From Gammaproteobacteria bacterium (GTDB taxonomy: Bacteria > Pseudomonadota > Gammaproteobacteria > SURF-13): DNA of 64,000 bases. The translations under genes and the position numbers were made by a program. Location: positions 212,826 through 276,825 of the forward strand of contig JAUXUQ010000010.1 in the NCBI GenBank assembly GCA_030680605.1, written 5' to 3'. Below, one piece after another: positions 6,611 through 48,105 of this stretch (position 1 is the stretch's first letter; every line of letters starts with the position of its first letter). The notes beneath the pieces are model-generated. The model saw only the letters and a program-made list of their open reading frames with translations, searched no databases and was not told the DNA's origin.

Positions 6611-6677
6611 GTCGCGAGTCGCGAGTCGCAAGTGGCGAGGAGCTGCCTTGCCCCGGCTACTCGCTACTAGTCACTAC
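6611..6677. repeat. Heptamer-repeat imperfect palindrome, AGTNGCG family, copy 1
   Basis: This lies in the gatC-gatA gap. The left arm (6611-6639) is four consecutive 7-base units: GTCGCGA, GTCGCGA, GTCGCAA, GTGGCGA. The right arm (6657-6677) is three inverted units: CTACTCG, CTACTAG, TCACTAC. The arms could form an imperfect RNA or DNA hairpin with a loop of about 17 bases. The element occupies almost the whole intergenic gap and ends 3 bases before the gatA start. Related copies lie at 8163-8225 and 31698-31768. Confidence 0.85.
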
Positions 6678-6680
6678 ACT

Positions 6681-8135
6681 ATGCACACTAAAACCATTGC
6701 AGAATTGTCGCGCGCGCTGCACCGGCGCGAAGTGTCGAGCACCGAGCTGACGCAGGATTTTCTCGCGCGCATCAAGCAGCACAACGGCGCGCTCAATGCC
6801 TACATTACCGTCACGGAAGCGCAGGCGCTGGAGCAGGCGCGCGCGGCAGACGCCCGGCTGACCGAAGCCAACGCCAACCCGCTCATGGGTATTCCGCTGG
6901 CGCAGAAAGACATCTTCTGTACGCAGGGCGTGAAGACGACGTGTGGCTCGAAAATGCTCGACAATTTTATTGCGCCATACGACGCTACCACCGTCGAGCG
7001 TTTTAACCGCGCCGGTGTGGTCATGCTGGGCAAGACCAACATGGACGAATTCGCCATGGGGTCGTCCAACGAAACCAGCTGGTACGGACCGGTAAAAAAC
7101 CCGTGGGATACCAGCGCCGTGCCGGGCGGCTCCTCCGGCGGTTCGGCCGCTGCCGTGGCCGCGCGGCTGGCGTCTGCCGCCACCGGCACCGACACCGGCG
7201 GCTCCATCCGCCAGCCCGCCGCGCTGTGCGGCATCACCGGCCTCAAGCCTACTTACGGTCGCGTGTCGCGTTACGGCATGATCGCCTTCGCTTCCAGCCT
7301 TGATCAGGGCGGCCCCATGGCGCGCACGGCGGAAGACTGCGCGTTGTTGTTGCAGGCCATGGCGGGGTTTGACCCGCGCGATTCCACCAGCGCCGATCGG
7401 CCGGTGCCGGGCTATGACGCCGCGCTCAATGATTCCATCAAGGGCCTCAAGATCGGCCTGCCCAAGGAATATTTCGGTGACGGCCTGGACGCCGCTGTGG
7501 CGCAGTCGATCGAGGCCGCGATCAAGCAGTATGAAAAACTCGGCGCCACCGTACACGACATCAGCTTGCCCAACACCCATCTGGCCGTGCCGGTGTATTA
7601 CGTCATTGCGCCCGCCGAGTGCTCCTCCAATCTGTCGCGTTTCGACGGTGTGCGTTTTGGTTACCGCTGCAAGGAACCGAAAGACCTGGAAGATTTGTAC
7701 AAGCGCTCACGCGGCGAAGGTTTTGGCGCCGAGGTCAAGCGCCGCATCATGGTCGGTACCTATGCGCTCTCGGCTGGTTACTACGACGCCTATTATCTCA
7801 AGGCACAGCAGTTGCGGCGTTTGATCAGCGATGACTTCACGCAGGCCTTCAGCAAGGTGGATGTCATCATGGGCCCCACCGCGCCCACAGCGGCGTTCAA
7901 CCTCGGCGAAAAGACCGACGATCCCGTCACCATGTATTTGTCCGATATTTACACCATTGCCGTCAATCTGGCCGGGCTGCCCGCCATGTCGATCCCGGCC
8001 GGGTTTGCCGGGCAGCGCCCGGTGGGTCTGCAACTCATCGGCAACTATTTCGACGAGGCCCGGCTGCTGAATATCGCGCACCAATATCAAAAAGTTACTG
8101 ACTGGCATGCGCGTGTACCCGTCGGCTTTGAGTAA
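6681..8135 (+). CDS. gatA: Asp-tRNA(Asn)/Glu-tRNA(Gln) amidotransferase subunit A
   Basis: Amidase-signature subunit of GatCAB that hydrolyses glutamine and passes ammonia to GatB. It has 484 residues from the ATG at 6681. An upstream TTG in the same frame would add residues encoded by the repeat hairpin and is not used here. The Ser-cisSer-Lys triad elements are visible: Lys in [12 protein letters not shown] (near residue 78), the glycine/serine loop [13 protein letters not shown], and the nucleophile region [12 protein letters not shown]. It lies between gatC and gatB, with repeat hairpins on both sides. Confidence 0.97.
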
Positions 8136-8162
8136 ATGACAGCGGTAAATATATCTACAAAT

Positions 8163-8225
8163 AACGAGTGGCGAGTGGCCAGGAGATTTATAGCTCGCCA
8201 CTCGCCACTTGCCACTCGCTACTGG
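8163..8225. repeat. Heptamer-repeat imperfect palindrome, AGTNGCG family, copy 2
   Basis: This lies in the gatA-gatB gap. The left arm contains two 7-base units (AGTGGCG, AGTGGCC). The right arm carries four inverted units in perfect 7-base register: CGCCACT, CGCCACT, TGCCACT, CGCTACT. The arms are separated by the AT-rich loop AGGAGATTTATAG. The element ends about 8 bases before the gatB start, close to where the ribosome must bind, so folding could influence gatB translation. Confidence 0.85.
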
Positions 8226-46833: not shown

Positions 46834-47108
46834 GGTTGCTTGATGATCCGGGTGGCGTCAGGCCCGGGCACCGACATTTCCAGTTGCTCGCGTGCAATCG
46901 GGTCAATGCGGCTGTGCGTGGCCCAGGTGCTTTGCTCGAGCTGCAGTTGTCCCCATTCCACATCCATGTCATCGCGCACCTGTTGCAGGGCCTGCAACTC
47001 GATGAACAGCTTGCGGCCTTCGTGGCGGGCGTAGACCACGGCGAGCGCGCTGGCCAGCGCTGCCAGCGCCAGCAGGGCGGCGAATAGCATGTCGCCATGC
47101 AGTCTCAT
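46830..47108 (-). CDS. ftsL: Cell division protein FtsL
   Basis: Small bitopic protein of the FtsQLB complex that signals to FtsWI. It has 92 residues: a very short cytoplasmic part, a membrane helix at about 6-26, then a periplasmic coiled coil (EGRKLFIELQALQQVRDDMD) and a short tail. The family diverges strongly, so the call rests on size, topology and its place between rsmH and ftsI, with ATGA and GTGA overlaps on either side. Confidence 0.93.
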   Translation of the reverse strand: MRLHGDMLFAALLALAALASALAVVYARHEGRKLFIELQALQQVRDDMDVEWGQLQLEQSTWATHSRIDPIAREQLEMSVPGPDATRIIKQP

Positions 47109-48034
47109 GGTTGCCGCTCCGCAACCCGCAGCACGGCACTGCGCGCGCGCGGGTTGGCGGCGATCTCGGCTGCGCCCGGGCGGATGGCCTTACCGACGGC
47201 ACGCCAGCGCGGATGCAGATCGGCATGGATGACGGGAAGTTCGGGCGGTAGTTCGACGCCACGCGCCTCGCGCCGGATGAAGCGTTTTACCAAGCGGTCT
47301 TCCAGGGAGTGAAAGCTGATGACGGCAAGCCGCCCACCGGGCGCTACCACATCGGCACACTGGTTTAGACAAGCAGCCAGATCGTCGAGTTCATGATTGA
47401 TGAAAATACGGATGGCCTGAAAGCTGCGCGTGGCGGGATTTTTGTCGCGCTCCCAGCGCGGGTTGGCGGCGGCCACGGTCTCGGCCAGCTGGCGCGTGGT
47501 GGTGATGGGGGTATGGACGCGTTGGGTCACGATGGCGCGGGCAATGCGGCGCGCATAGCGTTCTTCGCCGTACTCAAACAGGACGCGGACGATCTCGTCT
47601 TCACTGGCCCGCGCCAGCCAGTCGGCGGCGCTGATGCCGCTGTCCGGATCCATGCGCATATCGAGCGGGCCGTCGGAGGAAAAACTGAAGCCGCGCGCAG
47701 GGTCGTCAAGTTGGGGCGAAGACATCCCGAGGTCGAGCAGTACACCATCGACCTTGCCCAGCCACCCCCGGCTTTCAATATGCTGCTTGAGCACCGAAAA
47801 CGACCCCCGTTCAATCATGAAGCGCTTATCCGCCGCCAGCCCCTCCAACCCCGCCTGCACCGCCTGCGGGTCCTTGTCGAGCGCCAGCAGGCGCCCCTCC
47901 TTGCCCAACTTTTCCAGCACCGCTGCCGCATGGCCGCCACGACCGAAGGTACCGTCCACATACCGGCCTTCCGGTTTGATCGCGAGGCCCGTGAGCGCCT
48001 CTTCCAGCAACACCGCACGGTGCTGATTACTCAT
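47105..48034 (-). CDS. rsmH: 16S rRNA (cytosine-1402 N4)-methyltransferase
   Basis: Methylates C1402 in the ribosomal decoding centre (formerly MraW). It has 309 residues. The SAM-binding motif is VDGTFGRGGHAAAVLE near residue 35, and further family blocks are DLGMSSPQLDDPARGFSF and ISFHSLEDRLVKRFIR. It is the second gene of the dcw cluster, separated from mraZ by 71 bases that contain a heptamer-repeat hairpin, and its stop overlaps the ftsL start. Confidence 0.97.
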   Translation of the reverse strand: MSNQHRAVLLEEALTGLAIKPEGRYVDGTFGRGGHAAAVLEKLGKEGRLLALDKDPQAVQAGLEGLAADKRFMIERGSFSVLKQHIESRGWLGKVDGVLLDLGMSSPQLDDPARGFSFSSDGPLDMRMDPDSGISAADWLARASEDEIVRVLFEYGEERYARRIARAIVTQRVHTPITTTRQLAETVAAANPRWERDKNPATRSFQAIRIFINHELDDLAACLNQCADVVAPGGRLAVISFHSLEDRLVKRFIRREARGVELPPELPVIHADLHPRWRAVGKAIRPGAAEIAANPRARSAVLRVAERQP

Positions 48035-48053
48035 CGTTATCTAAACCAGGATT

Positions 48054-48105
48054 TAGGGGCCAGGGGCTACGGAAAATCCCTCGTCTCTAGACCCTAGCCC
48101 CTTAG
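48054..48105. repeat. Heptamer-repeat imperfect palindrome, TAGGGGC type
   Basis: This lies in the mraZ-rsmH gap. The left arm is TAGGGGC-CAGGGGC-TA (48054-48069). The right arm is CTAGACC-CTAGCCC-CTTAG (48087-48105), roughly the inverse, again in 7-base register. It ends exactly at the mraZ stop codon. The unit sequence is unrelated to the other two families. Confidence 0.75.

Follow-up and report, generated by a model that had tools for sequence, protein, structure and literature searches.

What are the hairpins, with arms built of 7-base units, that stand between the genes of core operons in a gammaproteobacterial genome, and how did they come to be there? The question arises from a window of 64,000 nucleotides (G000:C10:212826-276825) of a genome of 1.87 Mb and 60% G+C (G000), in which imperfect palindromes of this kind had been proposed for five intergenic gaps. 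We analyzed this window along with further sampled stretches of its source genome, amounting to 698 kb without N or about 37% of the genome (the small contigs L141, L146, L148 and L149 consist of N only and contribute nothing), and compared them with five sister relatives from the same family (G001-G005). Gap types and distances to stop and start codons are based on gene calls from a simple codon-usage caller. The hairpins at the five window gaps were recovered by base-by-base reading, repeat finders, a tandem-arm detector or a unit scan; the detector demands arms that are tandem at a period p and mutually complementary, with shuffled sequence as its control.

Period 7 in the window and beyond

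Direct reading and repeat finders recovered a hairpin with arms of 7-base units in each of the five gaps (Table 1), the complementarity of the arms being imperfect throughout. The exact 7-base register of the original prediction holds well overall, with the exceptions of ftsA/ftsZ, where the left arm is interrupted, and mraZ/rsmH, which has about two clean units per arm. The arms at pilC/pilD are indeed heptameric; however, the single AAGAGAA unit claimed for them resolves into a mix of two units, which is clearest in the relatives. The further claim of one structural class with several unrelated units was corroborated across G000 and its relatives. Table 1 also lists an inverted repeat of the window that is an ordinary palindrome or terminator, and an RNase P RNA gene.

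Table 1. Coordinates of the hairpins and of two other features of the window, with the occupants of orthologous gaps in the genomes G000-G005
Feature	Window position	Strand	Composition in the window	Occupants by genome
gatC/gatA gap hairpin	6610..6675	.	5' AGTCGCG x3 + AGTGGCG, loop ~19 nt, 3' CGCTACT-type units	AGTCGCG in G000; period-8 ACGCMAAG in G001; short AGTAGCG remnant in G002; GGGAAAA in G003 and G004; GATACAA/GAGAAAA in G005
gatA/gatB gap hairpin	8162..8223	.	AGTGGCG x2, loop 17 nt, four CGCYACT units	AGTRGCG in G000 and G001; period 8 in G002; bare 6-10 nt gap in G003-G005
pilC/pilD gap hairpin	20694..20760	.	AGATACA/AGAGAAA units	AGATACA/AGAGAAA in G000, G002, G004 and G005; remnant in G003; period 8 in G001
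ftsA/ftsZ gap hairpin	31698..31767	. (genes minus)	AGTRGCG arrays, loop 16 nt	AGTRGCG in G000 and G001; TAGGGGC type in G002 and G004; 32-33 nt gap without hairpin in G003 and G005
mraZ/rsmH gap hairpin	48054..48103	. (genes minus)	TAGGGGC-type units; weakest of the five	TAGGGGC in G000; GTGAGGC type in G004; none in G001-G003 and G005
ftsQ/ftsA gap				AGTRGCG in G001 and G002; overlapping genes in G000
Inverted repeat (gap 22303-22534)	22392-22449		17 bp, 94%, 24-nt loop; without 7-base register	
RNase P RNA class A	48768-49128	minus	directly upstream of mraZ	

The preference for period 7 is borne out both by tandem runs and by hairpin counts. In a 459 kb sample of G000, intergenic runs with at least 10 matches at lag 7 number 8, as against 0.05 in Markov shuffles, while other lags yield 0-2 such runs apart from lag 14, a harmonic of 7, with 5. 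The detector recovered 21, 2 and 0 tandem-arm hairpins at periods 7, 8 and 9, respectively, from the 698 kb of G000 (shuffled: 1, 0 and 0), 18 at period 7 (shuffled: 1) and 4 at period 8 from 260 kb of the five family genomes, and 10 at period 7 (shuffled: 0) from 573 kb around gatA of 80 more distant proteobacteria. Periods 5 and 6 gave low counts, chiefly from coding DNA or overlapping calls of the same hairpins, and the detector matches at L020, L172, L177 and L097 are false positives in GC-rich coding DNA. The outcome that would have spoken against the original prediction, namely no excess of period 7 over other periods, did not materialize in the sampled stretches of G000; the excess of head-to-tail 7-nt units also fits the definition of heptanucleotide tandem repeats (long SSR/STRR). 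Minor sets with period 8 (ACGCAAAG and ACGCCAAG) and period 9 (ACGCAGAGG and ACACAAAGG) are found in the sister genomes.

The density of the hairpins is lineage-specific because a sample of 397 kb, drawn from 20 further genomes of the class, contained one period-7 match, a false positive in coding DNA. The AGTRGCG unit itself has a patchy distribution: of 141 distant genomes surveyed in the class, 2 carry it, and one of these copies is again a hairpin directly after a stop codon. In another distant genome (G120), the reversed pattern used as a control, GAGCGRTGAGCGRTGAG, matches 8 times on one strand as a heptamer array of a different unit.

Architecture and placement of the hairpins

In the 51 hairpins with periods 7-9, purines make up a fraction of 0.71 of the 5' arm as against 0.29 of the 3' arm; 50 of the 51 hairpins have the purine-rich arm on the 5' side, a count that includes some orthologs and hence cases that are not all independent. 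As this layout is identical when read from either strand, the polarity belongs to the element and not to transcription; hairpins in convergent gaps show the same purine-5' arrangement. An exception to the polarity was seen outside the family, in the TCAGC units of L076.

The AGTRGCG hairpins have loops of 12-63 nt, which are more alike than expected by chance (mean best score 10.3 vs 7.8 +- 0.24 in shuffled loops). In the outer 7 nt of these hairpins, A accounts for 47% on the left side and, read on the reverse complement, for 46% on the right, compared with 23% in the background and 25-28% in control gaps; the resulting A-tract/T-tract boundaries are common to the AGTRGCG loci with p about 1e-12 and 1e-11. 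A TTAAAAAC-type boundary also adjoins arms of the AGATACA type. Hairpins of the AGTRGCG type adjoin tRNA genes at L135:4985-5171, where the tRNA gene is flanked on both sides, and at L012:768-835. In G004 (L180, near 1402, 10832 and 11406), arrays of the GTGAGGC type adjoin a repeated, tetraloop-like CCTTCGGC stem, which suggests a composite repeat.

The predicted placement against stop and start codons is upheld by the gap positions in G000 and the family stretches. Of 42 hairpins, 33 lie in same-strand gaps, 4 in convergent gaps and 4 in gaps called divergent, with 1 called in-gene; three of the four divergent calls go back to errors in calling the neighbouring gene (an upstream tRNA gene, or gatC placed on the wrong strand). 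Divergent gaps account for 26% of intergenic bases, a share at which about 11 of the 42 hairpins would be expected there. In same-strand gaps, the median distance is 6 nt from the stop codon to the hairpin and 19 nt from the hairpin to the next start.

Turnover in orthologous gaps

Comparison of orthologous gaps (Table 1) revealed filled and bare states among the sister genomes, in line with the predicted presence/absence, and the contrary outcome, an ordinary spacer of the same length without insertion in the relatives, was not observed. All five hairpin gaps of G000 carry a different kind of hairpin in some relative, vs about 3 of 37 other gaps (Fisher p=7e-5, with gaps classified by hand and by eye). 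Such repeated occupation could mean that these gaps tolerate hairpins, that they are hotspots or that a hairpin is needed there. Where the same kind is retained, as at ftsA/ftsZ in G000 and G001, identity over the gap is 91%. When filled and empty orthologous gaps were compared for a target-site duplication, their flanks were too diverged to read. At pilC/pilD of G005 (L160), the 3' arm of the hairpin is split by an insertion of about 220 nt with inverted repeats of its own, i.e., an insertion into an insertion. The gap of G001 orthologous to window positions 29402-29424 holds a non-periodic palindrome, GTAGGTTGGGTTA...TAACCCAACCTAC, absent from G000, and thus gaps of this kind are also used by palindromes of other families.

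The elements also change internally. G001 and G002 differ at ftsQ/ftsA by exactly 7 nt in the left arm, which is the longer in G001, while their right arms align gap-free; this length change in a single arm supports the original reading. The gatC/gatA loops of G003 and G004 are identical at 25 of 30 positions in inverted orientation, and an inverted loop is likewise common to two neighbouring hairpins of G000. The arm change and the inverted loops are consistent with slippage inside the arms and with whole hairpins being flipped or inserted anew.

Probable dispersal, rival explanations and known systems

On balance, the hairpins are probably, though far from certainly, several sets of small dispersing palindromic repeats whose arms change by 7-nt slippage; these sets would be REP- or MITE-like in behaviour and members of neither. 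Each set consists of non-coding elements of 60-120 nt, made of an inverted pair of degenerate tandem 7-mer arrays (8- or 9-mer in some sets) around a variable loop, with the purine-rich array 5'; the AGTRGCG set is bounded by an A-tract and a T-tract. Whole hairpins would be able to disperse, now or until recently, and would persist past stop codons in same-strand and convergent gaps, where they may harm neither coding sequence nor promoters. Their arms would gain or lose whole units by slippage, their loops would diverge and could be flipped by arm-arm recombination, and one set could replace another in the same gap. We infer dispersal as a unit, slippage and tolerance rather than function from the patterns described above: the shared loops and flanks argue for dispersal of whole hairpins rather than pure in-situ creation, and dispersal is further supported by the many loci with one unit in G000 and by arms that are independent of each other, their pairing not being maintained. 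Against dispersal count the divergence of most AGTRGCG loops, which is too great for common descent to be visible, and the period and polarity common to sequence-unrelated sets, which ordinary mobile repeats do not explain.

Also counting against dispersal, no mobility protein was identified when the six genomes were searched for Y1, RVT_1 and Ku. The Y1_Tnp domain is present in 5 of the 6 genomes; it was not found in G002, although this genome has hairpins, and the six sampled Y1 loci show neither such hairpins nor a RAYT flanked by them, so a RAYT/Y1 transposase was rejected as the current mover. Repeat addition templated by a reverse transcriptase was rejected as well, since RVT_1 occurs only in G000 and is absent from the five hairpin-bearing relatives; the only such domain of G000 lies at G000:C1:248285-250694, and one of the two Y1 genes of this genome is about 1.5 kb away. 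Ku-type end joining was discarded too, with Ku found in none of the six genomes.

The original prediction had offered, as one of two readings, a process that makes or expands heptamer hairpins at operon gaps, and a version of it, in which replication or repair creates and expands the hairpins in situ and period 7 is set by the footprint of a polymerase, appears rather unlikely to us. It would account for the period that is common to unrelated units and to distant bacteria and for the 7-nt change in one arm, and slippage by 7 nt has already been proposed for bacterial heptamer repeats (PMC4692102, PMC4679880). These parts of the claim stand; pure creation in place is weakened by loops and outer flanks that are partly common to different loci, as dispersal predicts, and neutral palindrome formation would not yield one polarity in 50 of 51 hairpins. 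We also entertain, as an unlikely possibility, a novel activity that would work in 7-nt steps (less often 8 or 9) on DNA or RNA in many bacteria, generating or maintaining the arrays irrespective of the unit and always with the purine-rich one 5'; if real, it would explain why sequence-unrelated hairpins of many bacteria have one architecture.

That the hairpins are functional mRNA elements, which couple or insulate translation or set the stability of mRNA segments within operons, is distinctly unlikely, even though they lie nearly always in transcribed gaps at the short distances from stop and start given above and different kinds repeatedly occupy the same gaps. Among 19 AGTRGCG hairpins, complementarity between the two arms of one hairpin (15.8) does not exceed that between arms of different hairpins (16.7; p=0.90), and the sense RNA is more stable than the antisense in only 14 of 37 cases. 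Over five ortholog pairs, 219 stem pairs are the same, 28 have one-sided changes that keep the pair, 8 are compensatory and 43 are broken, which by our own estimate is about the neutral expectation. No Rfam family matches at the gathering score, and the tests revealed neither the covariation nor the retained arm pairing of a conserved structured RNA; an asymmetry of the A/G position between the 5' and 3' arms, suspected from fold energies, was dismissed as A or G is about equally frequent in both. Selection on pairing is not visible, and an mRNA role of the hairpin, while possible, is not supported; the alternative prediction, taken as one of mRNA elements that are maintained for their structure, finds no support in these counts. 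The same gaps are moreover empty in relatives, and convergent gaps have hairpins too. Bidirectional intrinsic terminators or attenuators, made of an A-tract, a stem and a T-tract, are highly improbable: a strong stem does lie between A-rich 5' and T-rich 3' flanks and some copies are in convergent gaps, but the sense 3' flank, with 2.7/7 T, does not exceed the 5' flank, with 3.7/7 A, as a sense-side T-tract preference would require, and many copies stand inside core operons (gat, fts, pil), where transcription has to read through. We regard it as very unlikely that the arms are paired sites for a DNA-binding protein, a role for which the arrays of Geobacter metallireducens offer a precedent (PMC2700814). 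The degenerate consensus AGTRGCG with one free position, the variably spaced inverted pairs and the independence of the arms would suit such sites; however, several unrelated units per genome and per sister gap would call for as many proteins, and the hairpins prefer transcribed gaps and avoid divergent, promoter-bearing ones.

The Geobacter arrays are paired, multicopy "global regulator sites" on opposite strands, composed of tandem octamers (GTTGCTYN, TCTCCGTS[Y]) or heptamers (MTYCTGA) with variable spacing and many copies; they have been read as IHF/HU sites, and one pair lies between proB and proA, where a sister species has a different multicopy sequence (PMC2700814). The hairpins share with them opposite-strand pairing and variable spacing, a likeness of layout; the Geobacter arrays belong to another phylum and have other units, no preference for 7 nt is stated for them, and polarity and same-gap exchange were not analysed there. 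In most bacteria, heptamers outnumber all other long tandem repeats, and polymerase slippage has been proposed as their cause; they are intergenic and differ in length between close relatives, and some form inverted GGGAATC pairs in Xanthomonas (PMC4692102, PMC4679880). Period 7 and intergenic location agree with the present hairpins, but those repeats are direct arrays in which inverted pairing is incidental, whereas here it is the rule. Similarly, the intergenic TAACTGA arrays near start codons of marine Beggiatoaceae (PMC4679880), although gammaproteobacterial, are direct arrays (with one inverted case) of one unit per genome that are oriented to the downstream gene. A heptamer stem also occurs in the P6b element of the Nostoc trnL intron, with degenerate TDNGATT or NNTGAGT units on both sides, one-sided 7-nt length changes and replacement of one repeat class by the other (PMC4476775); it is a single site with a structural role in a group I intron, in contrast to the dozens of intergenic hairpins here.

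Among mobile repeats, REPs are palindromes of 20-40 bp that carry GTAG or CGTC as a tag on one side and are associated with RAYT transposases (PMC3733652). Like REPs and REPINs, the hairpins are small, intergenic, multicopy palindromes of same-strand and convergent gaps with patchy occurrence between species. Unlike REPs, they have the heptamer register and a TTAAAAAC-type boundary on both sides; the outer flanks of both arms bear no one-sided GTAG/CGTC tag, and none of the sampled Y1 transposase (RAYT) loci had the hairpins around it. They do have the terminal inverted repeats of MITEs, the two arrays forming the ends of the element. The layout had been thought undescribed, a view that holds only in part given the paired arrays of Geobacter (PMC2700814) and the heptamer stem of Nostoc (PMC4476775). 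In a literature that took in few subscription papers and no preprints, no description was found of a constant purine polarity, of kinds exchanged between sisters at one gap in core operons, of arms that vary independently or of a 7>8>9 series, and searches of that literature with the unit strings returned nothing relevant.

The excess of period-7 long tandem repeats in bacterial genomes is known yet unexplained. In this family of gammaproteobacteria, the heptamers occur mostly as inverted pairs of fixed purine polarity that are located past stop codons in core operons. The family therefore offers a testable system for asking why the unit is seven, what moves the hairpins and whether operons tolerate or use long hairpins between essential genes.
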